Assembly: GCA_009937025.1 (NCBI GenBank)
Contig: JAACDG010000070.1
Span: 1-54,769, forward strand
Length of the DNA: 54,769 nt
From: Methanobacteriota archaeon
Lineage (GTDB): Archaea; Thermoplasmatota; Poseidoniia; Poseidoniales; Poseidoniaceae
Reading direction: 5' to 3'
Made by a program: the position numbers and the translations under genes. The notes below the pieces were generated by a model. The model ran no database searches, had not been told where the DNA came from, and saw only the letters and a program-made list of their open reading frames with translations. The stretch's first letter is position 1. Every line of letters starts with the position of its first letter. Below are positions 1,745 to 44,370 of this stretch, one piece after another.

Positions 1745-3481
1745 TCATTCCTCAGAGTCAGAACGACCAGGGACATGGCGTGCCACGATGTCGACTAGAT
1801 TGTCGACAGCATCCATAAATTCCTCCGCATCATTGTCAACCAAGGAATCTGCGAAGTTCTTACCCTTCGAGCGGCCTCGGGCTACTTGCCAAATGATGCC
1901 AAACAGAGCCACTCCGATACAAACGAGTTTCCATACTGTCGCACCACCATCAGCACCCACGACATAGACGAGAATCATATAGAAAGACACGATTGTAGTT
2001 GTCAAGATCATAATTGGGAATCCGGCTTTGAAAAATTCATTAAATGAAATTGGGTAACCTGCTTCTTCAGCCATACCGGCTGTTACTACATTTGCTGAAG
2101 CGCCGATGAGCGTTCCATTACCCCCCAAACAAGCACCGAAGGCAAGCGCCCAAATCATTGGGCCAAGGTCGATGTTGAGGTCGTAAGCAATTTGCATGAC
2201 GACGGGTATCATCGTCGCGGTATATGGAATATTATCGATGAAAGCAGATGCAATTGCAGAAACCCAAAGGATGATTAAAACAGCTGCAGCGAGACGAACG
2301 TCATCTCCTTCTGCATCGGTTCCAAACATAGCAATACCTTTTGTCACATTGTCGCCAATAAACGTGATGACCCCTAGGAATCCAAGAGCGCCTATGAGGA
2401 CAAAAAGACCTGCAAAGAAGAGCAAGGTTGACCATTCTACGTGCTCGAGAGGTGCTTCCAATTCATGTCGATCTGTTGCCAGAAGCATAATTACAGCACC
2501 GACTAAAGCAATCCAAGAAACGGCAATGTGAGTGATTGGGTGGAGGAAGAAGTTCAGTACGACAAGGAACAAGATGGCCCCACTGACCTTGAGCATTGCC
2601 GCGTCTTTAATCCCATACTTTGATTCCAGTTCTGCAATATCTCGGATACGGCTTCCAGAAAATTCTTCTGCGTAAAACCACTTGAGAAACATGAAACTCG
2701 GCACCACGGTCATCAAAATACCTGGTGCCATTTCGATAATGAAATCGTTGAAATTTACTCCGGCACTTGCTAGGTCAGGATAACCGGCTTTCTCTATTGC
2801 AGCGGCTGAAAGACCTGAACCAATCATGATATTTGGCGGGTCACCGATCATGGTTGCTGCACCGCCAATATTCGAAAACAAGACTTCGGAAATGAGCAAA
2901 GGTATTGGCTTTATGTCAAGTACTTTAGCCAACTGAATAGTGACTGGAGTGAGCAGGAGCATCGTTGTAACATTATCTAAAAATGCAGAAAGGACAGCAG
3001 TGACGCTGCACAAAATAACAACGAGCGTCCATACCGAACCGCCGCTCTTTTTGTATGCTTGAACTGCAAACCATTCAAACAAACCAGTATGTGAAAGTAT
3101 TCCTACCATCACCATCATTCCGAGAAGGAGGCCGATTGTTTCCCAATCGATGAGCGTCGTGGCTTCTCCAAGAGTAAAGGCTTGTTCCGAGTAAAAGCCA
3201 AGAGCAATAATTGCAAGTAATCCACCAACTGCAGCGGCAAGTGTCCTGTGAACAATTTCAGTGATAATGAGTGCATACACGCCAAGTAAAATTCCTAAGC
3301 CGACCAGAATGGCTTGCGAATTTTCGATAGGTTGAAACGAAGCAGATGCCGAACCGCCACCTCCTGCCATAGAGGAAGTGGTAAACATCATAGTCCCAGT
3401 AAACGCTAACAGCCCGAGTCCAATGTATTGGGAGATGTGCCGACGGTTTCCACCAAGTACAATACTTGCCTTCATGAACAC
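1745..3481 (-). CDS. nhaD: NhaD/ArsB-family (ion transporter superfamily) Na+/H+ antiporter-like permease
   Basis: 578 aa, many TM helices; motifs SAFLDNVTTMLLLTPVTIQLAK, IGGAATMIGDPPNIMIG and ASAFIDNIPYTATMIPV are typical of ArsB/NhaD permeases. Confidence 0.85.
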   Translation of the reverse strand: MFMKASIVLGGNRRHISQYIGLGLLAFTGTMMFTTSSMAGGGGSASASFQPIENSQAILVGLGILLGVYALIITEIVHRTLAAAVGGLLAIIALGFYSEQAFTLGEATTLIDWETIGLLLGMMVMVGILSHTGLFEWFAVQAYKKSGGSVWTLVVILCSVTAVLSAFLDNVTTMLLLTPVTIQLAKVLDIKPIPLLISEVLFSNIGGAATMIGDPPNIMIGSGLSAAAIEKAGYPDLASAGVNFNDFIIEMAPGILMTVVPSFMFLKWFYAEEFSGSRIRDIAELESKYGIKDAAMLKVSGAILFLVVLNFFLHPITHIAVSWIALVGAVIMLLATDRHELEAPLEHVEWSTLLFFAGLFVLIGALGFLGVITFIGDNVTKGIAMFGTDAEGDDVRLAAAVLIILWVSAIASAFIDNIPYTATMIPVVMQIAYDLNIDLGPMIWALAFGACLGGNGTLIGASANVVTAGMAEEAGYPISFNEFFKAGFPIMILTTTIVSFYMILVYVVGADGGATVWKLVCIGVALFGIIWQVARGRSKGKNFADSLVDNDAEEFMDAVDNLVDIVARHVPGRSDSEE

Positions 3482-3525
3482 GCCTAATTAAATCATCATT
3501 TGAGTATTTCCTTGATAGCGCTTGC

Positions 3526-3801
3526 CTAACGCCAAAGAACGCCGACATTTCCTCGAGCCAAAACGACAATAGAATTCGTCTCTTCAGCCAAATGAGACCA
3601 TACATTTGCAATGTCTTTTCGTTCAAACAAACCTCGGTTTATTTTGATTTTTACCAAACTACGTTTTTGTAATTGTGCATCGATTTCCGAAATTAGAGTT
3701 TCAGTAATCCCAGACTTCCCAACACGGATACTGGGTTGGAATTCGCGCGACATAGCCTCTCGACGAATAGATTCTGGGATGTCCTTAGCCATGATAACCA
3801 A
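3526..3801 (-). CDS. CRM-domain (YhbY-like) RNA-binding protein
   Basis: FQPSIRVGKSGITETLISEIDAQLQKRSLVKIKINRG matches the CRM/YhbY fold signature; located next to rnp4. Confidence 0.85.
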   Translation of the reverse strand: MVIMAKDIPESIRREAMSREFQPSIRVGKSGITETLISEIDAQLQKRSLVKIKINRGLFERKDIANVWSHLAEETNSIVVLARGNVGVLWR

Positions 3802-3855
3802 ACCTTCCGAGTCGCCACTTGTTCATGTAGGTGACCGTTGTTCATGCTACCAAAT

Positions 3856-4203
3856 TCATGGATTCTGTATACGGTGATGTTGAGGGCCACCACCGTATCT
3901 CCGGATACTTGAACATTCTAAGCAGGTAACAACACGTTGACCTGCTAAAATTCGAACACGAATATTTTCGCCATACCGATGGGGTGCCAGGCAACGTCGG
4001 CAGAACAAGTGTCGGGCCTTTGACGGTATTGGGAGGCGATGTCGTTGAGATATCTTGACTAAATGTTGTGCGCTTGAAAGAACGATTTGTTCATCGTATT
4101 GCGAAGGGTTTTCGAGTATATTAATGAGCCGAACTTGGCTTGAACGGGCAATTGCTCGTCGGTCGATTTTACTTTGACGACGACGGTTGTTTCGAGAACT
4201 CAA
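3856..4203 (-). CDS. rnp4: Ribonuclease P protein component 4 (Rpp21/Rpr2)
   Basis: RHLFCRRCLAPHRYGENIRVRILAGQRVVTCLECSSIRRY: Rpr2/Rpp21 zinc ribbon; neighbour of the CRM-domain gene. Confidence 0.85.
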   Translation of the reverse strand: MSSRNNRRRQSKIDRRAIARSSQVRLINILENPSQYDEQIVLSSAQHLVKISQRHRLPIPSKARHLFCRRCLAPHRYGENIRVRILAGQRVVTCLECSSIRRYGGGPQHHRIQNP

Positions 4204-4212
4204 ACCCTCACC

Positions 4213-4842
4213 TCATTGATTTAATGCGACAAGAATATCTCCCGTTATCTCATCGATTGCACGGTCGCCATTTACTGCGTGGAAGATTCCTTTTGAGCGG
4301 TACCAGTCGGCGAGAGGTGAGGTTTGTTCGTGATAGGCGCCAAGACGTGAATTCACGGTTGTTTCGTTATCGTCAGCTCGTCTTTTCTCTTGCCATTGAC
4401 CACAATTACACCCACCACTTGCAACTGGATTGAAGGTGTCGTGATAGACACTGCCGCAACCTGCACACGAGTATCGCCCACAGATTCGCTCGACGATTCT
4501 CTCATCAGGAACTTCAATCGCAATAACATGCGTGACAGATGTGATTCCAGCCAAGGCTTCTGCTTGTGGAATAGTTCGAGGAAATCCATCAAACATGACG
4601 CCATTGGCTGCATCAGGCTCGAGGATTCGATCCTTGATCAAGTCGATGATGACTGCGTCAGGAACCAATTGCCCAGATTCCATGAATCCTTTCGCTACCA
4701 TACCAGTTTCTGTTCCTGCTTTGACTGCAGCACGTAACATATCGCCAGTAGAGACTTGAGGTAAACCAGTAGCGACCATGATTCTTTCTGCTTGAGTGCC
4801 TTTTCCAGCACCGGGTGGTCCAAACAATACAATACTGCTCAT
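4213..4842 (-). CDS. adk: Adenylate kinase
   Basis: IVLFGPPGAGKGTQAERI P-loop, FDGFPRTIPQAEAL, and zinc-type LID region CGRYSCAGCGSVYH. Confidence 0.95.
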   Translation of the reverse strand: MSSIVLFGPPGAGKGTQAERIMVATGLPQVSTGDMLRAAVKAGTETGMVAKGFMESGQLVPDAVIIDLIKDRILEPDAANGVMFDGFPRTIPQAEALAGITSVTHVIAIEVPDERIVERICGRYSCAGCGSVYHDTFNPVASGGCNCGQWQEKRRADDNETTVNSRLGAYHEQTSPLADWYRSKGIFHAVNGDRAIDEITGDILVALNQ

Positions 4843-4887
4843 GACACGCCCTAGTGGTGCATCATATTAGAGATACGCCCCGGAAAG

Positions 4888-7800
4888 TTACTGCCGGTCT
4901 AACCATTGTTGGCCATAATGTTGCCACTGTTCCATTGTCCAACCTTCGGGCAATCCAGATGCTGGCAAAGGCGGACCTATCGAAGGTGCTGGCTCTTGAA
5001 GAGCAACAGGTGTTGGCATTGGCATCGGTTGTGGAATTGGAAGTAATGGCAGAGCCTTCGGTGGCATTCCTGCTGGAGGGAGTCCTTGTGGCATTGGGAG
5101 TGGCTTGAGAGATGCTGCTCCAGGTGGAAGCCCCATAGGTACGGCAGCAGGAGCAGTTGGCAAAGGCATTTGCAACGATTGAGCAAGCGCCGCTGCAATT
5201 TCATCAGACGATACTTCTCCACTCGCTATTTCATCAACAGCGTATCCAATGTCCAAAGCATCATCTCTTCGAGTGCCAAGATGATCTGGATTGACAAAGG
5301 CATCCGGTGCCACAAGTTCTTCTCCAGAGTCAGTTAATTCACCACTCTTTTTCATTCGTAGGGCTAGTACGACTGCACCTATGATGACAACACCTACCAA
5401 CGGCAAGGAAAGATAAAGTGGTAAGAAACTGAACAATCCTTTTGTCCCGGTCGCAGAATCGACAGATGATTCAATGGACAATGTTCCATAAACCGAATCT
5501 CCTGAATTCAATGTTATGGTCGTCATGACCTTTCCTTTTTGGGCGTTTTCGCTTGGTGTAAGTTCGACAACAAGAATTAGAACTTCGCCAACTGCAATTG
5601 AATCAACATTATTTGGTGTGCATGAAACAGACCAAGCCTTGGAAAGGTTACCATCTGCGTCTAAAACTTCACTGAGGACATCACCGCTTAACGGCACATT
5701 TCCGTCGTTTCGAATGACAATATTTTGACGGACAGTTTCTTCTCTTGAAACAAGGATAAACGGAGTGATGCTGGCATCCTCAACCGTAATATTCGCAAAG
5801 GATGATGCAAGAACTGAGACTTTGACGGACACTGAATATTGAATCATGCGCCCATCGTTATATCCAGATGCTGTGACAACCAATTCGAACGCCTCGGAAG
5901 TTGCAGGTGCATTGGCAGGAGGAATAAACCCAAGACGTACTGTTCGATTCTCTCTTGGCTCGAGATAGTTGCTTGGGTTTGCAAAACCGACTGTCCAACC
6001 ATCAGGAGCAAGTCCATTGCTCCAATTTAGCGTCAATGGAGCGTTACCTGTATTCGTAACGTTAAATTCTCCGAAGGAAAAGTCTGAGGAAATAACGGTT
6101 TCAATAACGCCAGATTCAGGACCGGTTAATTCCATTGAAAGGTCGTCTTTCACCTTGAGAACGGTCGTATTCGAAACAAATTGCTGGGCATTGAGTTCCG
6201 TCCGTATGACGAAATTATTTGTTTCGCCTTCCTCGGCAACGGGTGGTACTCCCAATACAAAATTGACTGTTGTAACTTCTCCGCCGGCCAAAGTAAGAGA
6301 AATCTGGCGACTGTCGAGTTGATCTTGATACTTGACCTGAATCGGCCAAAGAGGGTTGGAGGGTTGTATTATTACATCCAAATCTATTGCGGTATTGCCA
6401 GTGTTTTCAACAGTTAGATTGAGTGAAACTTGTTCGCCTGTATCAACCATGCAATTCCGATTGATTGCTGAAGGGCCAATTGGTCCGAGGTCATCATACA
6501 AATCTCCTTCAAAAGATTCCTGAGGAAGTACCAAGACATCAACGGATTGAGTAAAATTCATTTCAGCATCATTTTGTGAATTGACCCAACACGTTACTGT
6601 ATCGGTCGAACCAGAAACAGGAGCACCGTTAGAAACAGGGGGGACAAAGATGCGAATATACATAGGAAGAGACTCTTTGATGTTCAAAGGTTCAAATTCA
6701 AGTGTCGAAGAATTCGATGAGCCAAGCATAACTTGCCAACGATTTTCAGAGGTGCAAGATACGACATACTGCCCAGGAGTATTTCCAATGTTCATCACGG
6801 AGATAACGAAACCTGTTGAGTCTCCTGGTGCTGCAGATAAACCGCTTATTCCTGCTGCGCCAATGTTGACTGCATTCACTTCGGGAACAACGATGGTTAC
6901 ACGTTGTGTGTGAGATACAGTAGGTTGTGCCTGATATCGAGCGATGATATCAACAACAAAAGTTCCTGCCCGTGCATAACGAGGCGCAGAAGAATCAGAC
7001 AAGTCTGCATATTCATTCTCAAGGTGAACTGTAAGCATCTTGAAATCGCCTTCTTCACCTTGTCCTTCCACAATGTAAGGGCCAATCTCAGAAACCGTCT
7101 TGGTCCAATAATCTTCAGGAGCAAGTAAGAAATCGGGTCGCCCCGGTTGAGGCATTTGTACATTGGTTACCGAAAGAGTAACACTTTGTTGGCCTGTTCC
7201 TTCATGAAGAATGTGTATTGGAATATCAATGCCAGTGTCATTGAGTACATCGAAGACTTTCATTGCTGAATCTGCCCGTGCTTCCGGTGTCGTTGGGGCA
7301 ATTCCTGAGGCATCTAAAGCGACAACACGGACCCCAAGAGCTGTTACTTCTATGTCTTGAGTCCACACATTGTTGTTTACACCATTGACACCATCGTTCA
7401 TTTCTGGTACTTGATTGAGCGTATCAATACTGAGTCGTAATGAATGAGTGCCTGTTGAAGTAAACTGATGCTGAAGTAAAAACGAATCAACAATTCCTGG
7501 CCCAAGTCCTGGGCGGTCAGCATCGAATAATGTTTCATTCGTAGTAAGGTCTTCAAGGGTAACATGGAAGGTTCCAGAGGATAAAGTACCTTGATTAATC
7601 CAACCTAATTGTAAGGTGATTAAATCATTCTTGAGTGGTTCTTGTGATGAAGGAACGATGCTTCCATTATATGTTGCCAAATCGGATTGTGGGTTTGATG
7701 TAGCATTCGCAACCAAAACGAGTCCAAAGGATTGGGTGGTGCCTCCTCGATGCATTACTTTAACCTGCCATTGCCCAGATGCAGTAAGAACGCCTGGTGC

Positions 7801-9837
7801 AACTTTAATCCGTTCGACATTGTTGATGGTATCAGCAACACCACCTGTTGTCGAAAAGCCAGATGTGAAATCGTTACCAAGCCACTCGTTTCCAGATGGG
7901 TCAACGAGAATCAAATCCAAGTCATTCACCAATCGAGAATTCGCTTGAGCAGCGTTTGCACTCCCCTCCTCATCAGACCATACCAGCGTCATATCAATTC
8001 CATGACTTGGGTCAAGAGTAAATGCATAGAGTAATCCAAATCCAGCATCCAATTGTTTGTTGTGATCGATGAAAGTATCCAGAGGGGTTGCTCCATCCAT
8101 TGGTAAAACCGTTCTTTCAAGGTCGATTTGACCCCATCCTTCGAGAGCGTTTGGAATATCAGGAGCTCCCAAATCCGTTGCTCCATTGATGACAACTGCT
8201 TTGATTAAAGCTGCAGAGGGGGAGTTAATTCCCAGTTCCTCGCGCAAGAATTCACGCACAAGTGCTGTTGCTCCTCCAGCAATGGCAGTCGCATGTGAAG
8301 AACCAGAGAGCGACATGTAAAGACTACTACCGTCGGAATGTGTACCTGTGCCACATCCAAATCCAGTGGGGGATTTGGCTTCTTCTGCAAGTCCCGAACA
8401 AATGTCCATTCCCGGGGCAACAATGTCAGGCTTAATTCGACCATCGAGGCTTGGCCCTTGGCTCGAGATATTAGAAACACTGCCGGTTAATGCACCGGTA
8501 TGAGTTGTCCCAACTGCAAGAACGTTTTTCGCGGTTGCTGGAGCAGATACTTGAGACGACCCTTGGCTACCCCGGTCTCCAACTGAGAAGAGAGGTAGAA
8601 CAGTATTTTTGTCACTTACAAGCAAATCTACAGAACGTGAATCAGCGGTATAATGCCCATAATTTCCATTTGAGCCCCAAGCATTGATGGCGATACGAGC
8701 AGTTTTCTGTTCTGCATCGTTAAGTAAGTCGTAGATTGAACCAAGCCGACCAAAAACTCCGGTTGGGTCGTGTTCAAGTGCATACATGACGAGGTTAGCA
8801 GCAGGTGCAATACCTTGTGCTGATGTATCACCTGAGCCATCTCCAAGAGCGGAAAGAGTAACGTGGGTTCCATGCCCAGTATTGGTATCGGACGGTGAAG
8901 GGTCAAGTCCAAATTGGGTGTAAACACCTGCAACTCGACCGACGATATCAGGGTGATCTTGGTCCAACCCTGTATCTGTAATGGCAATTGTTTCACCAGA
9001 GCCGTCAAGAGTGAAAGGCGCATTTGTGGCGATACCAGTTTGGCCAATTATAGCACCAGCAACTGCATTGTGCAGGACAAGACCCGTTGTTGGCTCGGTC
9101 CAAATAATACGACCATCGTGCATGATATTGTTGAGAAGAAGTGATTGGAATTGAGAGTCAAAGTGTATTTCACACAATCCTACACCGCACCATGCCTCAT
9201 TCGCACCCATTTTGACTAAGTCGAGACTGAGGGTGTCAAAACCTCCGATAGCAAGGTCAGATGAAGGCACGAGTGCCAAATGGGTTACTGATGATGGTTC
9301 GAGAAGCGAGGAATGTATTCGCCAACCAGGGTGCTGTACGCCAGCCCAACGTACACGTTCATCGTTTTGTAACTCTTCAAGAGATGAGAGAGGGGGTGAA
9401 GCGAGGCGAATGAGCCAGCCTTCATCGGCAATAAAGTCCAAAGGCGTGATGGAATATTCCTTCACCAGTTGCTCAAGAACGACACCATCATGCTGATGCA
9501 ATTGAATCAATGCAAGAGCCGATTGAGCCGGGTCGTTCAGGTCCGTATATTGTGAATGCAAGTTTGGGCCATCAGAAACCAAAGGGTCAAATTCGCCGGA
9601 TTGGAGACGCAAAATCCCACTTGATGGACGCAATTCTACATCCAAAATGGGGATAGGTTCTGCTCGGTTCCAAAGAGTTGTAGCAAGTTCAAGGCGTTCC
9701 GATTGTGAAGTCTTGTTTGGCTCATCGAGTTGTAAATCCAAGACAGGAGTTGGCTCGGATTGGAGAACTGGACTTAGAGAAGTCAGTAACAGCAAGAAGA
9801 GCATCAAAACTGGGCGCCGCATTTCTTGCATGGTCAT
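4888..9837 (-). CDS. Giant secreted, membrane-anchored subtilisin-like (S8) protease with CARDB/NEW3-like repeats, C-terminal TM, Pro-rich cytoplasmic tail and GLPxGWT motif
   Basis: Signal peptide MRRPVLMLFLLLLTSLSP; S8 triad contexts AITDTGLDQDHPD, GHGTHVT and SGSSHATAIAGG; TM LPLYLSLPLVGVVIIGAVVLALRMKK; C-term SGLPEGWTMEQWQHYGQQWLDRQ. Confidence 0.9.
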   Translation of the reverse strand: MTMQEMRRPVLMLFLLLLTSLSPVLQSEPTPVLDLQLDEPNKTSQSERLELATTLWNRAEPIPILDVELRPSSGILRLQSGEFDPLVSDGPNLHSQYTDLNDPAQSALALIQLHQHDGVVLEQLVKEYSITPLDFIADEGWLIRLASPPLSSLEELQNDERVRWAGVQHPGWRIHSSLLEPSSVTHLALVPSSDLAIGGFDTLSLDLVKMGANEAWCGVGLCEIHFDSQFQSLLLNNIMHDGRIIWTEPTTGLVLHNAVAGAIIGQTGIATNAPFTLDGSGETIAITDTGLDQDHPDIVGRVAGVYTQFGLDPSPSDTNTGHGTHVTLSALGDGSGDTSAQGIAPAANLVMYALEHDPTGVFGRLGSIYDLLNDAEQKTARIAINAWGSNGNYGHYTADSRSVDLLVSDKNTVLPLFSVGDRGSQGSSQVSAPATAKNVLAVGTTHTGALTGSVSNISSQGPSLDGRIKPDIVAPGMDICSGLAEEAKSPTGFGCGTGTHSDGSSLYMSLSGSSHATAIAGGATALVREFLREELGINSPSAALIKAVVINGATDLGAPDIPNALEGWGQIDLERTVLPMDGATPLDTFIDHNKQLDAGFGLLYAFTLDPSHGIDMTLVWSDEEGSANAAQANSRLVNDLDLILVDPSGNEWLGNDFTSGFSTTGGVADTINNVERIKVAPGVLTASGQWQVKVMHRGGTTQSFGLVLVANATSNPQSDLATYNGSIVPSSQEPLKNDLITLQLGWINQGTLSSGTFHVTLEDLTTNETLFDADRPGLGPGIVDSFLLQHQFTSTGTHSLRLSIDTLNQVPEMNDGVNGVNNNVWTQDIEVTALGVRVVALDASGIAPTTPEARADSAMKVFDVLNDTGIDIPIHILHEGTGQQSVTLSVTNVQMPQPGRPDFLLAPEDYWTKTVSEIGPYIVEGQGEEGDFKMLTVHLENEYADLSDSSAPRYARAGTFVVDIIARYQAQPTVSHTQRVTIVVPEVNAVNIGAAGISGLSAAPGDSTGFVISVMNIGNTPGQYVVSCTSENRWQVMLGSSNSSTLEFEPLNIKESLPMYIRIFVPPVSNGAPVSGSTDTVTCWVNSQNDAEMNFTQSVDVLVLPQESFEGDLYDDLGPIGPSAINRNCMVDTGEQVSLNLTVENTGNTAIDLDVIIQPSNPLWPIQVKYQDQLDSRQISLTLAGGEVTTVNFVLGVPPVAEEGETNNFVIRTELNAQQFVSNTTVLKVKDDLSMELTGPESGVIETVISSDFSFGEFNVTNTGNAPLTLNWSNGLAPDGWTVGFANPSNYLEPRENRTVRLGFIPPANAPATSEAFELVVTASGYNDGRMIQYSVSVKVSVLASSFANITVEDASITPFILVSREETVRQNIVIRNDGNVPLSGDVLSEVLDADGNLSKAWSVSCTPNNVDSIAVGEVLILVVELTPSENAQKGKVMTTITLNSGDSVYGTLSIESSVDSATGTKGLFSFLPLYLSLPLVGVVIIGAVVLALRMKKSGELTDSGEELVAPDAFVNPDHLGTRRDDALDIGYAVDEIASGEVSSDEIAAALAQSLQMPLPTAPAAVPMGLPPGAASLKPLPMPQGLPPAGMPPKALPLLPIPQPMPMPTPVALQEPAPSIGPPLPASGLPEGWTMEQWQHYGQQWLDRQ

Positions 9838-14893: not shown

Positions 14894-17320
14894 ATGCGCA
14901 GAGTGTTCATTGTGATGATCCTCCTGCTGCATTCAACGGTAGCGGTTGCTGTTGCAGGTGCTGATTCTTCATCGACACATCCTCGTAGCAGTGAATTGGA
15001 CGTGATTGGGCTCAACCAAATTACACTTCACCAAAATGAATTGGTAGAAGTCTTGTTCACACTGCACAACATTGGTGAAGATGATGATTTCTATTCCTTT
15101 GAACTCGAGTCGGAAGTGAGTGGCTTGAATGCAACAGGTTTGCCGCACACTAAATTCGTTGAAAGCGGATATCTTCGGCAAGTGAAATTTAATCTGACCT
15201 CTGATGCAACTACACCTTTCGGGGTGTATAATTTTTCATTGAACTTTACCTCTCAAAACGACCAAAATTGGCATCAAATCGAAACGTTTCAAGCCCTTGT
15301 GGCGCCTTATTCAAATCTCAACTTTGGGGTGTCGGGAATCTCATCATTTATCGTCACACCAGGAACAAGAACTTCTGTTGCCATGAACATTACAAACAAT
15401 GCCACATTAGAAGATGATATCACCTTCAACTTGTATTCTCAAACGGGGTGGAATTGGGGGTGGACAATGGATTCTACCGAAGGCGTCAACGCATTTGAAA
15501 CGCTCCAACCGGATTCATTGACGTATGTATTTTTGTGGATAGACGTCCCCCCAATTATCGATGGGGCTCCACTTGCAAATACTGGGCCACGATTTCAATT
15601 GAAAGCCGTATCTGGCATAGATGGTGCGATATCACAATGGTCTTTTGACCTTTTAATGGATGATTTCTACAATGTTTCTATTGATTCAGGTGGCGACAAT
15701 CTCTTGCTCAAACCTGGAGGGAATGATCGAATCCCCATCTCTGTTCGAAACACGGGTAATACGCCAAACTTGGTCAATATTACGCTGGAAGCAGTATCTG
15801 AAAATGGTGAGCCAATCGTTGGCATCCCAATCAGTGACAGAATTACATATGAGGGTTGGACAATGGCTCTTTTCGGAGGATTAGAAGGAAATATGCTCCA
15901 ACCAAATGAATCGAGAACTCTTGAAATTGGATTCCAAGCGCCACTGGAATATTCAGGGGACATCGATGTTCGTTTGCGCATCTTTGCCAGCGGTGCGCTT
16001 GCTCGAATGCAAACGATAGATGTCAGCGCATCCATTGATTGGCAGCGAAGTGGGTCTGTGCAATTGCTTACAGATTCATGCCAGTATTTGTTACCAAATG
16101 AAACGTGTGATGCACGTGTTTCAATAGAGAACTCAGGAAATGCGGTTGATAGTTATGAATTCACAATAATACAGGTACCTACATTTGTTGAAGCAGAACT
16201 TCTTCTCTCAACGACTGAAATTGAACCAAATGGTATTGTCGAACTCACTTTGCTTAACATCACTGCAAATGCATCTGCTTATGCTTTTGAATTAGATGAT
16301 GTCGTTGTAGAAATTCGATTACTTAACACAGATACTCTCGTTGGAATTGCTCGAATACCGGTAAAAATAGCTCCAGTTATCAAATGGGTATTCACCGATA
16401 TCGTTGAAGAAATTGACAACCAAGGGCGTCTATCAATCGCCATGACTCTTCGAAATGAAGGGAATACTGCTGACGGTTTATTGGTTCAATTGCAATCATC
16501 ACATTCGACAGACATGTCGTTTATTCCTCCCTTCATAGCCATCTATGAAGAAGACATTGAGTACCCTCGTTCCTTCGAAGTAAGTGATATTCCTATCGGC
16601 TATAATTTCACTGTTCGTGCTTGGGTTGATTTACCAATCGACCAACTGAGTAACGGCACGGTATGGGTTAACACGAGTGTTCGTTCACAATTTGAGCCAA
16701 GTACTCTCTTTACCTACACCTGTCAAGGGGATTACAAAGGAATACCTTGGCAAGAAACAGAGGTGGATGATTCCTTTGACTTTGCTGCTGCACTCAATAC
16801 CGGCTGGGATTTTTTCAAGGCATGGTTTTTGATGTTCTGTGCAGTTTTGTTTTCTGGAGCCATTATTTACAAATCGATTACTGCCCGTAATCAAAGGAAT
16901 CTTGAACAAAAGCAACTCGAGGAATTGTATCGTGAAAAAGAACCTGAAGTTGTTGGGGACTGGATGGATAAATTCAGTGCAACAGATAAACAAGTGCCTG
17001 AAGATACTGCTCTGAAGGTTCATCCAGACCATTTCCAGGAGGCTTTCCAAAATCGAGCAGGAACATACAAGCCGGTCAGTGAGCCGGTCAATCCTGCACT
17101 CACTCAGGCAGCCAATACGGTGTTAGATTTTCATAGTTCGAACGAGTTGCGTTCTTCAGCGGATTCCTTGCTCGAAGATATCCAATCCGGAAAAGTTTCA
17201 GTTCCGCATGAAGGGAATGAAACTCTCAAAACTACTGCACTGGATACGGATGAAACGAAATCTGTTGAATCACAATCGGTTCCTCTCCCGAACACCGAAA
17301 ATGATGACCTCGATATTTAG
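14894..17320 (+). CDS. Large secreted/membrane-anchored protein with CARDB/NEW3-like Ig-type repeats and one C-terminal TM
   Basis: Signal peptide MRRVFIVMILLLHSTVAVAVAG; repeated 'N(T/S)GN...' beta-domain motifs (ISVRNTGNTPNLVNITLEA; VSIENSGNAVDSYEF); TM AWFLMFCAVLFSGAIIYKSI. Confidence 0.8.
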   Translation: MRRVFIVMILLLHSTVAVAVAGADSSSTHPRSSELDVIGLNQITLHQNELVEVLFTLHNIGEDDDFYSFELESEVSGLNATGLPHTKFVESGYLRQVKFNLTSDATTPFGVYNFSLNFTSQNDQNWHQIETFQALVAPYSNLNFGVSGISSFIVTPGTRTSVAMNITNNATLEDDITFNLYSQTGWNWGWTMDSTEGVNAFETLQPDSLTYVFLWIDVPPIIDGAPLANTGPRFQLKAVSGIDGAISQWSFDLLMDDFYNVSIDSGGDNLLLKPGGNDRIPISVRNTGNTPNLVNITLEAVSENGEPIVGIPISDRITYEGWTMALFGGLEGNMLQPNESRTLEIGFQAPLEYSGDIDVRLRIFASGALARMQTIDVSASIDWQRSGSVQLLTDSCQYLLPNETCDARVSIENSGNAVDSYEFTIIQVPTFVEAELLLSTTEIEPNGIVELTLLNITANASAYAFELDDVVVEIRLLNTDTLVGIARIPVKIAPVIKWVFTDIVEEIDNQGRLSIAMTLRNEGNTADGLLVQLQSSHSTDMSFIPPFIAIYEEDIEYPRSFEVSDIPIGYNFTVRAWVDLPIDQLSNGTVWVNTSVRSQFEPSTLFTYTCQGDYKGIPWQETEVDDSFDFAAALNTGWDFFKAWFLMFCAVLFSGAIIYKSITARNQRNLEQKQLEELYREKEPEVVGDWMDKFSATDKQVPEDTALKVHPDHFQEAFQNRAGTYKPVSEPVNPALTQAANTVLDFHSSNELRSSADSLLEDIQSGKVSVPHEGNETLKTTALDTDETKSVESQSVPLPNTENDDLDI

Positions 17321-20296: not shown

Positions 20297-22345
20297 TTAG
20301 GCTACAATTTTGATTACCCGTTCGCAACCAACACATGCGAATCGCAAAGGCCTTTGTTGACTCATGATAGGATTCGGAGTTGAACAAGCAGGACATGGTA
20401 TGACGGGTGTGCTCAGCGTCATGGCTTCTTGAACCAATTCGGTCCTTGAACGGGGGCTTGTAACTGCTGTAACCCACCAGATCATAACTGCCATAGCAAC
20501 TGCCCCACCAACGAAAGGTGGTTGATAGCCAAAGAAATGGATGAGAACAACAAGTGGGACCAAGACAAGTTCAACATACACAATCTTTCTTTGCCGGTTT
20601 TTCGTCAGTTTCAAAGCCACCAGGAATCCAAATCCAAGGCCAAAGATGACCAAGAGAAGTAACGGGAGTGGACTGTGAATTGGATCCTTGGTTGGAGTTG
20701 CTGTGAATTTGAATTTATCATCTTGACCGATATCATCGCCTTTCACTTCAAATATTTCCCCCCAAGGCAAGCGCGAATGGCTGAGTGATACAGATTCACC
20801 GGGGTCCATTGTGGCACCTGCGAAAGAACTCATTGCAGAAGATGTTCCGCTCAACGAAAGTGTATATCCACTCCATAACGGAGAAGGTTGGGCTGTAATG
20901 AAATTTTCAAAAAGAGAAACGCGTTCTCCATTGGGAATGATTATTGTCGACGAGATAATCAATGTGATTGGGTGGTTCACCACATTTGCCTCACCATTCA
21001 AGTCAACATCAACATCGAAAGTGTTGAAATCTTTTGTTTGAGCTCCGAGTAAATCTTCCACTTCAAAACCAAGCCCTACTCCAAGGTAATAAGCAGCCAA
21101 ACCTGCACCATTTGTACTCAACATTTGACGTTCAAATTCGTTAACTTCTGTGTCTTCAATAGTACGACTCACACGTTGTTCATCGCCGACGCTTCCTGCA
21201 TCGAAACTTTTCAGGACATCGGTAAGTGGTGTTACTTCATCTCCAAGATGGTCCATTCCCCATCGCATCCAAAAAGCCATTTCTCCACCGATCTCAATTC
21301 GTGTTTGACGTTCAAGTTCAAGACCTTCATCCGAAGATACAAGTGAAAACGTTCCAGTGATAGTAAGTGGACTTCCATCTCCAGTGGTCTTCAAAGGTTC
21401 ATCGGGTGGATAATAGGTTCCTGTTCCACCGTTCGAGTCAAATGTTTCGATTTCAAAAGAGGTCGAACCAGAGAGTGAAGCACCTCCGGTCTCGAGCGTG
21501 AGGCGGGTTTCAACTGACACTGTTTCAATACCTCCTGCTGCACCCTCCCAGGTCCAAGTAACACGAACACCATCTCCTTGAGAAGTTTCAATTGGATCAC
21601 CAGTAAGTATCGTCGTCCCTACCAACATTTCAAGAGATTCAGATTTTGAAAGAATGTCCATGCCCCAATTTGAATTGATAACGACTGAGAAATACACTTC
21701 AGAGCCTTCAACTTCTGGCTCAAGTAGGGTCAGGTCAAAGAGTGGAATATCCGCCTCAAGAGTTGAATCACTTTCTTCCGAACCCCACTTAAACTCCAAC
21801 ATCGCATCGCCAGTAGGCAATGAAAAGACGACTGTACTAGCAGTGAGCGTAAGTTCAATAAGCCCATTATTAGAAATTGCAGTTTCATCAACATCGATAT
21901 CCAAGGTTAGTGTCCCAGTACCTTGGCCGAGGAAGGAATTTCCCGGTTCTGTTGAAGCACTGAAAGTCTGACTTCCAATCTTCAAAGTAGCCGTTGCATT
22001 GACTTGTGCACTTGCTGCATCACTCACTTCGTATTGAATCGAAACTTTCCAGGTATGGGCAGGAACTGTACCCGGCCAGACATGAGGCAACACCCATTTT
22101 CCAACCGTTTCTTCTGAAGTAACTGCATTTGCAATGGTTGCAGTGGTGGTCGTATCAGTCAAATCTTGAGAAAAAGGCGACATGGAACCCGCTGAAGCAG
22201 AGCCCAGTAAATGCAATTCCACTTCAGCAGAGTCGCAACATACAACTGTATCTTCAGCAGTTGCATCGCCAATAAAGGAATCAACCAAAGGCGTCATCAT
22301 CGAAGCAATGAAAATCAAAACAAATACGAATGGACGTACAGTCAT
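20297..22345 (-). CDS. Secreted/membrane beta-rich protein with C-terminal TM helices and terminal cytoplasmic zinc ribbon
   Basis: Signal peptide MTVRPFVFVLIFIASMMTPL; TM helices LPLLLLVIFGLGFGFLVALKL and VELVLVPLVVLIHFFGY; C-term IPCPACSTPNPIMSQQRPLRFACVGCERVIKIVA. Confidence 0.75.
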   Translation of the reverse strand: MTVRPFVFVLIFIASMMTPLVDSFIGDATAEDTVVCCDSAEVELHLLGSASAGSMSPFSQDLTDTTTTATIANAVTSEETVGKWVLPHVWPGTVPAHTWKVSIQYEVSDAASAQVNATATLKIGSQTFSASTEPGNSFLGQGTGTLTLDIDVDETAISNNGLIELTLTASTVVFSLPTGDAMLEFKWGSEESDSTLEADIPLFDLTLLEPEVEGSEVYFSVVINSNWGMDILSKSESLEMLVGTTILTGDPIETSQGDGVRVTWTWEGAAGGIETVSVETRLTLETGGASLSGSTSFEIETFDSNGGTGTYYPPDEPLKTTGDGSPLTITGTFSLVSSDEGLELERQTRIEIGGEMAFWMRWGMDHLGDEVTPLTDVLKSFDAGSVGDEQRVSRTIEDTEVNEFERQMLSTNGAGLAAYYLGVGLGFEVEDLLGAQTKDFNTFDVDVDLNGEANVVNHPITLIISSTIIIPNGERVSLFENFITAQPSPLWSGYTLSLSGTSSAMSSFAGATMDPGESVSLSHSRLPWGEIFEVKGDDIGQDDKFKFTATPTKDPIHSPLPLLLLVIFGLGFGFLVALKLTKNRQRKIVYVELVLVPLVVLIHFFGYQPPFVGGAVAMAVMIWWVTAVTSPRSRTELVQEAMTLSTPVIPCPACSTPNPIMSQQRPLRFACVGCERVIKIVA

Positions 22346-22414
22346 TACTTCTCCTCGAGTCGAACCCAGCGCGCATGGCACATAAGCGAAGCGCTTTGCC
22401 GACTACAGAGAGCC

Positions 22415-28697: not shown

Positions 28698-31463
28698 TCA
28701 TTCACGATTCTTAAGGTAATCTTCGCCATACCAAGCCCATTGGTCCATTGTCCAGCCAGCAGGAAGGCCTTCAGGGGGCAAAGGCGGAGTTGATGGGACA
28801 ACGGGAGCGGTGAACTGAACTGGAGCGTTCACGAGAGGAGGACTGTTCAGTGCATTGGATGGACTTCGACGACTCATCAGAGCAAAACCAACGAGCACCA
28901 TGAAAACAACTCCGAAGGCCACCAGAATAAATGTGGTAGGGAAGGACGAATCTTTCGAAGCAAGATGCCGTGAAGCATCCAGTGGGAAAGCGTCTGCTTC
29001 ATCTGACCAACCATCTCCGTCGCCATCAGGGCAACCGATGAGGTCTTGTTGAGAAGTCCCAGCGACTTCAGGACAATCATCACTCATATTCGTGCCGTTT
29101 TGGTCGGGATATCCGTCCTCATCGGAATCTGACCAAAATCGTTCATCGCTCGGGAAGATATCGAGATTATCATCCCAACCATCACCATCTGTATCAGGGC
29201 AGCCTAGACGTTGTTCACTTGAGAGACCAAAAAGTCCAGGGCAAGCATCGGGTAAATCGCCTGTTATTGAATCTCCATAACCATCTTGGTCAGCATCGAG
29301 GTGTTGAGTTGCGTCGTTTGGGAAAGCATCGATGGCATCTGACCATCCATCGCCATCTGTATCAAGACATCCAAAGACATCTTCTGATGAATTTCCTTCA
29401 ATCATTGGACAAGCATCGGGTTGAAATCCATCCGCAGCATCCCCGTAACCATCACCATCTTGGTCAGCATGCTGAGTGCTGTATGTAGTGAAGGCGTCAG
29501 CCCCTGAAGCCACAGTCCAATCCGCATCCGGATTAGACCAACCATCTCCATCTGAATCAATACAGCCAAGGCGGTCTTCTGTAGAGGTGCCTGGAACTGA
29601 TACACAGGAATCACCCTCAAATCCATTGATTTCATCTCCAAAACCATCACCATCAAGGTCGGACCATTGAGTTGCCTCGGCAGGGAATTCATCAACTAAA
29701 TCTGAATAACCGTCGTCATCCCAATCAGCGCAACCTATGAGGGTCCCTGCATCGCTGGTACCAGCATTTACTGGACAGTCATCAATACTGTCGGAAAAGC
29801 CATCATTGTCGTCATCAAGGTCTTCTGAGATATCTTCACAACCGTCTTGGTCGAGGTCATTGGTGGTGGAAGAAAAGAAAGAGGATGGGCTTGTTGGACA
29901 GAGGTCCATTTCGACGGATGAAATACTACAGAACCAAAACCCTTCAGATATTGATGCATCACAAATACGGTCGTTATCATCATCATAGTCTTCTCCAGAA
30001 TCTCTGCAACCATCGAAGTCATAATCGGAGGATGTGGTCGAAGTCCATCCAAGGTCGCCGGTCGCACAATAGTCTACAGAATCAAAAACACCGTCGTTAT
30101 CATCATCGGAGTCTTCGGTGAGGTCGGCACAACCGTCCGTATCATGGTCTGTTGCCGAAGAAGAAATCCAACTCAAATTACCAATATTACAGTCATCGGC
30201 AAGGTCAAGGATACCATCGTCGTCATCATCATCATCACACACATCTCCAAGTGCATCGCCATCGTAATTGGCTTGAGAAGGATTAGCGATCAATGGGCAA
30301 TTATCAACATCATCTCCAATTCCATCTCCATCTTCATCCATAAAGGGGTCGATTCGAACGACTTCATCTTGGCCATTATCGACGTAGTAGAGATGACCAT
30401 TTGGACCAATTTCAAGACCCATTATGGATGATGCTGTGGTTTGAATCGTATCGGCCACTGAAGCACTTTTTCCATCGGAATTCAGGTCATATGCAACGAT
30501 CTTTCCATTACCATTGAGGGAAACAAAGAGTTGGTCGCCATCAAGAGCGATTCCTGAAGGTCGGTTGAGCCCAGAGGCCAAAACACCCCATTCAATTCCA
30601 GTAATGCTTGAATATTCTTCAAGTGGTTCCAATCGTGATGAATCGCTCATGATGTCCTGAGTATTGTATGATGTATCATCGGTATTGACCCATAACACAC
30701 GGTTTGCTCCCGCATCTGCGATGTAAAGAATTCCTGAATCTTGGTCCAAAATCATGTGTCCGGGAACTCCAAAAGAATGTGTGAGCTGAACATCGACATA
30801 TCGACGAACAATTCCATCCGAGTGGTCGTCATAGCCTGTGTCATGGTCCATTTGGAAATCATAATACACGAGTTCCCCGTAATAGCCATCATTGTACCAA
30901 TATTTGTTGGCAGAGTCGTGAGCAATACCAACCCCATATGGAGATTCATGATTCATATCAATATGACTGCCAAGAAGACCATTGCCATTGTTTTGATTTT
31001 CCACCGCAAAGTGATTCAATGAAGATGGCCACAATGTTGGACCCATGAAATTGTTCGGCGCGCCTTGACCGCAAAATGTATTTCGCGTTTCTTGGGCAGA
31101 ACCCCATTGCCAATCGAATTCGGGATGATATGCCCCAAATGCAATTGAACTTACTTCTTCGAGGAAATGATTTCGATTCGAATCTTGACGATTCTGGGAA
31201 GTTTGGTTTTCAAGCCCTGTGTTTTGGACAATCGTTATGCTGTCTGTTGCTCGGTTAGCCACCCATAATTCGTTTGCTCGACCAGGATGGAATTCCAAAT
31301 CACGTGGGTCAGAAAGGGCATCGGAGGAGTCTGCTATGACCACTTCATCGAAGCCTACACCAAATTGAGATACAACCGGTGCATCTTTTGAAGCAAAGGC
31401 ATGTGAAGGAATAGAAAAAAGCAGAAGGCTTAGGAGAATTATGCCGATTTGCTTATTCATCAT
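28698..31463 (-). CDS. Surface protein: NHL/beta-propeller-like region, tandem thrombospondin type-3-like Ca-binding repeats, C-terminal TM and GLPxGWT motif
   Basis: Signal peptide MMNKQIGIILLSLLLFSIPSHAFA; repeats DTDGDGWSDAIDAFPNDATQHLDADQDGYGD...; TM FILVAFGVVFMVLVGFALMS; tail EGLPAGWTMDQWAWYGEDYLKNRE. Confidence 0.88.
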   Translation of the reverse strand: MMNKQIGIILLSLLLFSIPSHAFASKDAPVVSQFGVGFDEVVIADSSDALSDPRDLEFHPGRANELWVANRATDSITIVQNTGLENQTSQNRQDSNRNHFLEEVSSIAFGAYHPEFDWQWGSAQETRNTFCGQGAPNNFMGPTLWPSSLNHFAVENQNNGNGLLGSHIDMNHESPYGVGIAHDSANKYWYNDGYYGELVYYDFQMDHDTGYDDHSDGIVRRYVDVQLTHSFGVPGHMILDQDSGILYIADAGANRVLWVNTDDTSYNTQDIMSDSSRLEPLEEYSSITGIEWGVLASGLNRPSGIALDGDQLFVSLNGNGKIVAYDLNSDGKSASVADTIQTTASSIMGLEIGPNGHLYYVDNGQDEVVRIDPFMDEDGDGIGDDVDNCPLIANPSQANYDGDALGDVCDDDDDDDGILDLADDCNIGNLSWISSSATDHDTDGCADLTEDSDDDNDGVFDSVDYCATGDLGWTSTTSSDYDFDGCRDSGEDYDDDNDRICDASISEGFWFCSISSVEMDLCPTSPSSFFSSTTNDLDQDGCEDISEDLDDDNDGFSDSIDDCPVNAGTSDAGTLIGCADWDDDGYSDLVDEFPAEATQWSDLDGDGFGDEINGFEGDSCVSVPGTSTEDRLGCIDSDGDGWSNPDADWTVASGADAFTTYSTQHADQDGDGYGDAADGFQPDACPMIEGNSSEDVFGCLDTDGDGWSDAIDAFPNDATQHLDADQDGYGDSITGDLPDACPGLFGLSSEQRLGCPDTDGDGWDDNLDIFPSDERFWSDSDEDGYPDQNGTNMSDDCPEVAGTSQQDLIGCPDGDGDGWSDEADAFPLDASRHLASKDSSFPTTFILVAFGVVFMVLVGFALMSRRSPSNALNSPPLVNAPVQFTAPVVPSTPPLPPEGLPAGWTMDQWAWYGEDYLKNRE
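28990..30345 (-). repeat. Coding tandem array of TSP type-3-like DxDxDGxxD repeats
   Basis: Repeated minus-strand codons for D(T/S)DGDGW(S/D)D..D.FP.D and D.DQDG(Y/W)GD; each unit ends ..CP...G.S...RLGC. Confidence 0.85.
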
Positions 31464-31636
31464 GTCAATCCGAAAATGCACTGTGCTTTGATACCTTTCA
31501 TTATTAAATCTAAATGACATCAATAACAATCCTTCCAAAGAGACTACTTCCGACCCCATTCACATTGGAATTCTCGCTAATAATTGATTGAAAGTAGGGG
31601 ACGAAACTTTAACTAAAACTCTTCTCCGAAGTATAT

Positions 31637-38434: not shown

Positions 38435-38887
38435 TTACCAGTCTTCTGGAATCTCAAGAGGAGAGAATAATTGTCCAGGGCCTTTGGCCTTTGACAACTG
38501 AGTTCGAGAGAGGGCCTCCCATGGACGAAGTGCCAGCAACCCCTCTGCTAATGATGCATCAATCTCTACGAGTGTTACGCGAATGAGTGTTGCCAAAATA
38601 TCCATTCGGTCAGCATCGATTATCTTGAAAATTTTTTCTAAGTCAAATGTAAACTCATTGCCATCATCATCTGGAGTTTCAATCACCCATGGGTGTGTAA
38701 CCGTATCAGGGAATTCTTGCTGAGTCGCAGTAATGTGTTCGTCTAATGAACGGGAAAGGCCCGCTATGTGCTTACTTAAGACAAGGCTCACTTCGATTAA
38801 TGGCATGTTCAATTGGTTGATGAGGTTGACCATGCGTTCTTGCAAAGTCACCATACCATCTATGGCCGAAGCCTTCTCGTTCGTCAT
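38435..38887 (-). CDS. Uncharacterised helical protein
   Basis: 150 aa, ends just 9 nt downstream of the giant gene stop, same strand; no family recognised. Confidence 0.6.
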   Translation of the reverse strand: MTNEKASAIDGMVTLQERMVNLINQLNMPLIEVSLVLSKHIAGLSRSLDEHITATQQEFPDTVTHPWVIETPDDDGNEFTFDLEKIFKIIDADRMDILATLIRVTLVEIDASLAEGLLALRPWEALSRTQLSKAKGPGQLFSPLEIPEDW

Positions 38888-38896
38888 CTCAACAAC

Positions 38897-41800
38897 TCAC
38901 TTTTTCATTGCTTCAACGTATTGCCAGCCAAAGTGGTTCCATTGGTCTTGGGTCCATCCCTGAGGCAGTCCAGTCGGTGGAATTGGAGGTGGAGCCGGTG
39001 TTGTAACTACAGGTTTTGGCTGCGCTATTGGTGCAGGAGACGCTTGTGGTAGTGGAAGGGCCAAGCCAGGCGGAGGAGGTAAATTTTCATCGATATCAGG
39101 TAATGTTTTCGAGTGATTAAGTTCATCGAGAACTTCAGCAGTTTGGTCTTCTGCACCGCCTTCAAGTTCACCTTCACGGATTCGGCGATTCATGACTAAG
39201 AGCCACATGGCAAGGCTCAGAGAGAGCAATGCAATCAGATAGAGAACGATACTAAACGTTCCTTGCTGTGCTTGAAGGGCAAGAGCCTCCCCGTCACGGA
39301 TAGTCTGCTCTTTCACCAGCAATGGGTCGAGCGTCTTACGGTCCATTTCAACTTCATCAACAAGGACTAAAAGTCGGAATTCAATACTTTCACCAGCCTC
39401 GACATTGGCGATTGTTGGGAGTGTTCCTGTAATAACTGCGCCCGCTGTAGCAACCAAGTCCACCCGTGCTGTGTCTTCCCAGAAACCACCGTCAACTGCA
39501 CGCTGTAAGACAAAGGCTACATCGCCTTTCCCACCGAGATTACGAACTTCAAAGTTAAGTTCGACGGATTGTTGAGTTATTGGACTTGGGTCATCCCAAG
39601 ATAAAGAACTGGTGGCGGCATTCAAATCAATACTTGGCCCTAGAAGAGCTAATGACCAAGAGGCAATAGGTTGGGAAAGCGAGTTTCCAAGCGTGTTGAA
39701 AGGATTACCTGCTGAATCAGAACCAGAAACCCAAACATCCACCATATAGGACGGCAATAATGTCGTTGCTCCTGCATCGGTGAGGTCGAGTGTACCTGTC
39801 CAGAAAAATTGCTGCTCGAAAGGAGTCGTGTCCGGCAAAGGCATACTGCCCCGAGAAATTTCTGCTTCTCCTGCTCGAACACGATAATGCAAAACGGCAG
39901 GCTCATCAAGCGCAAAGCCATGGTCGTCAATTGTTTCAAGCATAACTAACAAGTCTCCACAAGCCCCAATTGACAACTCTGAACCTGCTGAAACTTCATC
40001 CAAAGCAACAGTTGCAATCGTTGGACGAGAACTGTCGACTGCAAGACGTACACGTTGTAGCGTAGGTGTTTCATCCATAGCTAAACCAGGTAAATCATCC
40101 AGTTCGAGACGGAGGTCGAGGTGGCCAGAAGGAACAGAGGGTATCAAGAGGTCGAGGCTAAACTCTCCATCTCCACGGGTAGAAGTTTTCCAGGTGTTAT
40201 CATAATCTCCAAAGACCACATCAAATGCACCCGCCGGAGCAGGTGTTTCATCTTCGGAAAAGAGAACTCGACCATTAACTCGTAATGCTTGTCCTGCACC
40301 AATCAACGTCTCTTCGAATTCAGGATTATAGTGGTTTGTTCCATCTCGAAGTTCTACAGCACGAATATGCCCCTCCATGGTATCAAATCTGAAATCGTTG
40401 TCAAGACTCCAAGCATCGTTTCCTAAACCAGCAGTAGCTTCGAAACAAGGTGTTTCTTCACCTTCATTACATGGCAAATCAGTAACAAGGATTTTTGGAA
40501 TAATTTTACTTATCCCATTTGTATCAAAGGATTCAGGGAATGTCCATGTTAATTGGAAACGTGCCAAGATTTTGATGATGCTGTTGTTATTTTCATCTAA
40601 ATCTACACTTGAATACAGATTTGAAACTGCTATATTGGCTGAACCAGACTCCATAACCGCAACAGGGTTCCCATCTGGTCCTTTCATCAAGGAAATGAAG
40701 ACTGAAGTTTCATCGTCATTAAAATTGCCACCAAGTGCGAGTTGAATATACTGGATATCTTGCCATCCATTCCGGTCGGAAAGAACAATTTGAGCAGTAT
40801 AAGGGATTCCTGGGTGCAATGGTGCTTGGTCATCATGCCCAAGAATTGTGGAATTATCAAGGTCGAGTTCAGGCTCAAATTCAACGCGTATTTGGTATGT
40901 ACCCAAATCATTATCCCAATTTGGAACTTCTTCTCCAGGCACATATCCGCATGCGATATTGCTGTCAGGACAGACGGGTCCACCACCCATTGCAATGGCA
41001 TTGTCTTGAGCGTCTTTACCGGTGATAAAGTAGGATACTCGTTGACCATGTTGAAGCATTGAATCATCGATGAGACCGTCAAAAATATGCATTCCACCGG
41101 CTTGAGTATCGGGGGATGTGAGGATTTTCATTTCATATTCGTCTGAATTTGGCAGGCCATCAAAATTATAATCGCTGCAGCCAAGAGATTCACTTGCTTT
41201 ACAACCAATCCAGTAATTGAGAGTCAATTGGTTTGGAGGGTCAACCGAATCTTGAACGAAGATACTCACTGCTTGGCCTCCAGGCGCAGGAGGTCCCGCA
41301 TGTCGTTCACTTCCATCACCCGGGGTCGAGGACAACACAAGAGGAGAATTACCATCCAAAACCAGTCGGATTGTATTGTATCCTGGGTTCGAATAAACTG
41401 AACCGTTCTGCATTTGTATTGCTTCGACGTAGAAGATCATTCCACCTGGAGAGGATTCCAGTGGAGACTGGAACGTAATATTGTATTCTCCAAACGCAGG
41501 GTTTTGTTCTTGTGCCAGAAGAATCGGTTCGCCTATTGGAACTCCGTCATATGTGACATTTTGTCCTAATATGCGCAAGAAGAATTGTCCTGCAAGTGGA
41601 GTAAGTTGAGAATTCTGGAAATAGATTCCTCCTGTGAAAGAGAGATTAAATCCACCTCGAACCCAATCTTGAGAATACAATTCTCTACCTGTTTCTTCAA
41701 AGACTCGCAAGCCATCGAGTTGAATATCATTTTCTACTGTTATGTCCAAATCTTCAGTTTCCCATGCAGCGACTGCTTGACCTAAGTCATCTTCGACCGT

Positions 41801-44302: not shown

Positions 44303-44370
44303 GCCTGCCCCCCCATACAGGCTTAGGACCTTTGGTCTTTGAACCATGCGGATACCGGTGAGACGTAAAA

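Follow-up and report, generated by a model that had tools for sequence, protein, structure and literature searches.

Eleven proteins of the genome that contains the window (the whole stretch of 54,769 nucleotides that was analysed; Poseidoniaceae, Marine Group II archaea) end in PP[LIV]PxxGLPxGWTxEQWxxYGxx[WY]L, as found by a search with a profile of this tail. The peptide, hereafter the GLP tail, forms a mini-domain family not described before and, throughout the order, tags about 10 giant surface proteins per cell as one group. With a probability of about one half, we take it to be a small cytoplasmic docking module for one common cytoplasmic partner, a role that is likeliest because the roughly 10 unrelated type I giants of each cell have no other recognisable cytoplasmic feature in common. 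In ocean surface waters, no planktonic archaea are more abundant than Marine Group II, which lacks cultured representatives (PMC6461757), and the tail bears on how these archaea deploy proteases and adhesins. The results are evidence that archaeal surface proteins have modular cytoplasmic tails, and of this level of envelope organisation we found no description; nor was the tail itself found described in a search of mainly open-access literature.

GLP Tails in the Window

The preliminary description had reported one short motif at the ends of three surface giants. Re-reading of the window ORFs returned exactly the three C-terminal sequences then given, all on the minus strand, with the motif as first quoted at 4891-4956 in the S8 protease, 28701-28772 in the NHL/TSP3 protein and 38903-38974 in the 1825-aa protein. 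The conserved block proved longer than first given, as it starts at PP[LIV]P, and the claim was confirmed and enlarged to the 11 proteins of the genome, in which each strong copy lies at or near the end of a long open frame.

The S8 (subtilase) surface protein (1649 aa, 4888-9837, minus strand; PF00082, E=4e-38) has CARDB/NEW3-type repeats and a single C-terminal transmembrane (TM) helix (5362-5418, minus strand), identified from hydropathy and sequence and followed by RMKK (positive inside). A cytoplasmic linker (4975-5361, minus strand), first acidic and then Pro-rich and poorly conserved among orthologs, leads to the tail PPLPASGLPEGWTMEQWQHYGQQWLDRQ at the extreme C-terminus (4891-4974, minus strand), which is the feature first described plus its Pro leader. 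The 953-aa NHL/TSP3 surface protein (28698-31559, minus strand) has its C-terminal TM helix at 28875-28931 and its tail, PPLPPEGLPAGWTMDQWAWYGEDYLKNRE, at 28701-28787 (both minus strand), for which AlphaFold predicts an extended Pro part and a helix. In the 1825-aa surface protein (38897-44374, minus strand), whose Thalassarchaeaceae orthologs carry other tails, the C-terminal TM helix lies at 39194-39250 and the tail PPIPPTGLPQGWTQDQWNHFGWQYVEAMKK at 38900-38989 (both minus strand). Next to the S8 protease gene lie the adenylate kinase gene and one for a SecY-sized protein with 11 TM helices (1745-9837, minus strand), and the order of these genes is similar in the near-complete relative CM001443.1, a Marine Group II chromosome in a single contig of 2,064,136 bases in which 1,741 ORFs were called.

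Anatomy, Topology and Carriers

The consensus of 151 distinct copies is P P [LIV] P x x G L P x G W T M [ED] Q W x [HY] Y G x x [WY] L. Positions P-7, G-4, P-2, G0, W1, Q5, W6 and G10 are invariant, the two Trp being spaced 5 residues apart; the invariance of GW..QW..YG is partly owed to the way in which the copies were collected, a bias from which the Pro and Gly positions before GW are free.

A TM helix was found 30-149 residues ahead of GW in each of the 159 distinct tail proteins, and the 12 residues flanking it contain on average 2.7 K/R inside vs 0.3 outside. An N-terminal hydrophobic segment is present in 69 of the 73 tail ORFs whose start is inside their locus, both kinds of segment having been called by simple hydropathy and not by a trained predictor. 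Given the TM helix upstream, the positive-inside flank and the N-terminal segment, the tail is therefore cytoplasmic on type I membrane proteins, which upholds the proposed order of extracellular part, single TM helix and cytoplasmic motif. The location at the extreme C-terminus, also proposed earlier, holds for most copies, as the motif is 3-9 residues from the protein end in 125 of 163 copies and is followed by no more than 35 residues in 158. It fails for the family of g1441 (with a copy on own contig C18), in which the protein runs on for 35-82 residues past the motif, with a second conserved acidic motif, LLDDLDL, as its end. No soluble or internal occurrence of the motif was found among CM001443.1 ORFs or the sampled tail proteins.

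The ectodomains of the carriers include subtilase, NHL/TSP3, CARDB-, PKD- and NEW3-repeat, beta-propeller and arylsulfotransferase-like types. Consistent with the preliminary description, they are mostly unrelated: among the CM001443.1 carriers, BLAST linked only the g1440/g1441 pair and one repeat of g1253/g1674. The former is a tandem pair of GLP-tail genes whose products are 33% identical in CM001443.1 (the pair also lies at L003 and L340, own contig C18).

Distribution of the Tail

The full motif was found in 10 of the 1,741 ORFs of CM001443.1 (tail HMM, E<1e-3), near the C-terminus and after a single TM helix in every case, and at the same threshold the reversed and shuffled CM001443.1 proteomes gave 0 matches. 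All 10 ORFs fall within the 103 type-I-like membrane proteins of this chromosome (hypergeometric P ~3e-13). The motif recurs far beyond chance.

The expected recurrence in related genomes was borne out by a class-wide search with the tail HMM, in which 223 of 244 genomes matched, all 223 being Poseidoniales. Copies per genome varied from 5 to 12 in the family of the window and from 1 to 7 in the second family of the order. Twenty of the 21 genomes without a match are listed, and all of these fall in a third family, one that is not part of the order and is probably Marine Group III according to GTDB taxonomy. A phylum-wide sample gave matches in 24 of 116 genomes, only members of the order; among the genomes sampled, the tail was not found in the sister lineage of the class or in other Thermoplasmatota. 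The named matches listed are Marine Group II/Poseidoniales, except for some labelled only Euryarchaeota or Thermoplasmatota, and weak matches elsewhere may exist. A viral origin was rejected, as the viral contigs searched contained no relative of the tail.

Selection on the Peptide

The preliminary description had suggested selection on the peptide from synonymous differences between copies. Synonymous sites in the tail codons indeed vary freely (pS 0.82, near saturation; pN 0.19), the invariant Gly, Pro and Leu of the motif being encoded by 4-6 codons. Among orthologs, identity is 66-92% in the motif, 31-64% in the ectodomains and mostly 25-50% in the linkers. Because the linkers diverged and pN/pS is ~0.23 at near-saturated synonymous sites, the motif is under purifying selection: it is constrained, and the linker is not.

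Predicted Fold and a Tandem-Unit Relative

With a 64-row alignment as input, AlphaFold predicts an extended Pro segment and one helix (42-56), without strands, for the GLP tail (pLDDT ~87 over the motif), at a pTM of only 0.43 for the single unit. The helix is amphipathic and aromatic-rich with the invariant Gly in its middle, and its conservation covers ~200 degrees rather than one narrow face.

A sister protein with a Laminin-G/PA14 ectodomain, ~1,710-1,790 aa long in most family members, ends in two PxGWTxEQ units, which read IPEGWTSEQYRLWLEGEMPEGWTLVQWVLFSDEQLELL in the genome of the window. A tail of the pattern PxGWTxEQYxxWLxGxxPxGWTxxQW was noted within the C-terminal 60 residues (L301-L330) in 72 of 97 genomes of the window's family. 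The tandem-unit and GLP tails were aligned by hhalign with a probability of 95% (E=2.7e-8), and a tandem-unit HMM ranked the GLP tails of the proteome directly after its own members. A two-helix mini-domain is confidently predicted for the tandem-unit tail (pLDDT ~91 over the folded part, pTM 0.61). Judged from sequence, the two tails share a PxGW[ST]xEQ[WY] unit, by which the GWT-unit family is defined here. We take PxGW[ST]xEQ[WY]xx[YW] as the elementary unit, with the Pro leader of the single-unit tail standing in place of the first helix of the tandem tail. This relationship is based on the tandem-unit comparison, as an earlier profile comparison that had matched the GLP tail to further GW tails was partly circular, those tails having been chosen by eye for GW.

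No Pfam or NCBIfam family fits the GLP or tandem-unit tail (Pfam scan of 11 GLP tails at E<=10), and Foldseek returned nothing from the PDB for either model. MbtH was rejected as an identity of the tandem-unit tail; its matches were below the cut-off and look like chance Trp matches.

Exchange of Tails among Orthologs

At 44% identity, the 1825-aa protein has an ortholog in one Thalassarchaeaceae genome whose tail is an EF-hand plus GYTDEQLLSSGWTQEQIDTARANGQI; the ortholog in a second genome of this group has an EF-hand-like end. Such cytoplasmic tails, seen in L248 (C-terminus, to 3690) and L250, hint that calcium might act from within the cell to control a surface protein. The orthologs of g1440 (32-39% identity) have acidic helical ends such as LDxEDIEALFEE or retain the GLP tail, and the S8-type tail is retained in Thalassarchaeaceae. 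The tail is present on the arylsulfotransferase-like protein in the genome of the window and at eight other loci; the CM001443.1 ortholog of this protein, g0886, ends 24 residues past the TM helix with no tail remnant downstream, and the tail is therefore not essential for every carrier. Tails are thus exchangeable, with orthologous ectodomains joined to a GLP tail, an EF-hand + GWT tail, an acidic tail or none.

Most type-I giants of CM001443.1 have other tails or none. The further short tails among its ~103 type-I-like proteins are W-rich, helical GW/GY, zinc ribbon and acidic LDDL, classes that are rough patterns and not curated families. In the sister lineage, giants end 2-7 residues past the TM helix, in two cases only. 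Poseidoniales giants have several cytoplasmic tail modules that can stand in for one another, and the GLP tail is one of these.

A Proposed Docking Module and Its Alternatives

As a docking module, the tail would be a mini-domain of ~25-30 residues in which the predicted order is a Pro-rich leader, PP[LIV]PxxGLP, that is probably polyproline-II, and then a single aromatic helix with a Thr cap, WTxEQWxxYGxx[WY]L, on which the leader may pack. It would lie just inside the membrane on a flexible linker, and one common cytoplasmic partner would grip the ~10 giants and thereby anchor, cluster or position them. EF-hand + GWT, W-rich, zinc-ribbon and acidic LDDL tails are further interchangeable tail modules; since there are several, different tails would mean different partners. 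Docking is the best fit because the carriers are unrelated, conservation extends over most of the surface, the linker is disposable and the tails are exchangeable. We start here from the observed sequence, position, topology signature, taxonomic range, purifying selection, tail exchange and tandem-unit homolog and from a predicted fold, and infer the existence of the partner and its anchoring or clustering role.

The preliminary description had proposed a recognition tail for a dedicated adaptor. The proposal is reasonable and tail exchange between orthologs fits it, but no adaptor was identified: the neighbours of the ten CM001443.1 tail genes have no family in common except the g1440/g1441 pair and one weak match. 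The tail peptide is a ready bait for partner finding. Directly downstream of the 1825-aa gene, the window encodes a 150-aa cytosolic protein ending GQLFSPLEIPEDW (38435-38887, minus strand), which is kept in both families (also L248:3708-4187) and has no Pfam family. It was rejected as the partner, as it stays beside the ortholog that has an EF-hand tail instead.

A broader and more tentative proposal is an address code inside the membrane, in which interchangeable cytoplasmic mini-domains (GLP-GWT, tandem GWT, EF-hand + GWT, W-rich, zinc-ribbon and acidic LDDL) would be read by lineage-specific cytoplasmic scaffolds, through which adhesins and exoenzymes such as proteases would be given their places on the cell envelope. 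Such a code, if true, would be an archaeal counterpart of the organisation of eukaryotic receptors via cytoplasmic tails.

Rather unlikely, in our judgement, is self-association, in which the aromatic helices of many tails would bind each other and the giants would co-cluster in the membrane without an adaptor. It would account for an amphipathic, aromatic-rich helix with an invariant Gly in its middle and for tandem units that are predicted to fold together in one protein, and it needs no partner gene, of which none was found. However, the aromatic face may already be covered by the Pro leader, the conserved surface is wider than one self-contact face, and the SHOCT domain, a comparable short C-terminal domain, was negative in an experimental oligomerisation test (PMC3581485).

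A little more doubtful still is a tag for sorting, an assembly checkpoint or turnover, by which a cytoplasmic chaperone, an AAA protease or an export factor would recognise a complete giant. The tail occurs only on large exported membrane proteins and mostly within 3-9 residues of the end; being C-terminal, it is made last and therefore marks the full-length protein. In one family, however, the motif lies 35-82 residues ahead of the end, the majority of a cell's type-I giants have a different tail or lack one, and the tail is swapped or lost among orthologs.

Some WW domains are known to bind ligands of the PPLP class. A network in which the PP[LIV]P leader binds W-rich tails on a cell's other giants, of which there are ~10 short ones in the same genome and also some in Thalassarchaeaceae (L342), is nevertheless very improbable, as the W-rich tails match neither the WW nor the DUF2510 model and conservation is equally strong in the leader and in the helix, although a simple Pro ligand could do without a helix. 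Passive inheritance, by which ten proteins would have one recently duplicated anchor cassette with a motif of no selected function, would explain the TM-linker-motif order common to all copies and is largely refuted by the selection data given above and by the retention of the tail across two families.

Comparison with Known Domains and Tags

Membership in a known mini-domain, WW or SHOCT, is hardly tenable. The preliminary description had suggested a WW-like mini-domain, and the tail is indeed short, contains Trp and has an LPxGW like that at the start of WW domains; this likeness amounts to a short, chance-level PDB match (E=0.7). The proposal was abandoned, as no WW profile match was obtained and a three-stranded sheet with two Trp ~20 apart differs from a tail predicted as one helix with Trp 5 apart.

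SHOCT (PF09851) is a domain of unknown function for which localisation and binding have been proposed (PMC3581485). Like the GLP tail, it has ~30 residues and mostly lies no more than ~50 residues from the C-terminus, in proteins that have little else in common, and by eye the helix register of the tail (cap, acidic, hydrophobic) is that of SHOCT helix 2. Where SHOCT has two amphipathic helices joined by a short turn, the GLP tail combines one predicted helix with a Pro-rich leader that takes the place of helix 1, and only the tandem-unit relative has two helices. SHOCT was rejected, as comparison with its alignment by hhalign gave a probability of 0.1% and Pfam gave no match. The SHOCT profile scored below the cut-off in 9/9 Poseidoniales genomes tested and above it in 3/3 of the sister lineage (L289-L291, L300).

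In PP-fold peptides and the Trp-cage, which are secreted hormones or designed peptides, a polyproline-II segment packs on an amphipathic aromatic helix. The tail may have the same architecture, its model giving an extended Pro part and a helix at pLDDT ~87 and no PDB match in Foldseek; unlike the GLP tail, these peptides are not membrane-protein tails.

In PGF-CTERM/archaeosortase, MYXO-CTERM and LPXTG tags, a motif is followed by a TM helix and a few basic residues. These, too, are short C-terminal tags common to many unrelated surface proteins, but they are processed at or outside the membrane. MYXO-CTERM-tagged proteins number dozens per genome (PMC11980579). A sortase-type tag was rejected for the GLP tail, as the motif would have to precede the TM helix, whereas it follows it in the cytoplasm.

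Eukaryotic adhesion receptors are type I proteins with short conserved cytoplasmic tails (PDZ ligands, NPxY) that are read by an internal adaptor. They serve as a working analogy for the GLP tail, to which they have no sequence relation and whose own adaptor is presumed.

Other Tail Classes

W-rich tails such as DGHEYLEYPTGSGAWYYRRSSNAEWNEWAQ are found on the CM001443.1 giants g0021, g0987 and g1054 (L144-L247). They had no match in Pfam and were rejected as WW or DUF2510 domains. In the window, a 694-aa membrane protein (20297-22381, minus strand) has a four-cysteine zinc-ribbon-like tail, CPACSTPNP...FACVGCERVIKIVA, with similar tails in L279 and L284-L288. An 808-aa membrane protein (14894-17320, plus strand) has an acidic DDLDI tail resembling the LLDDLDL end of the g1441 family.
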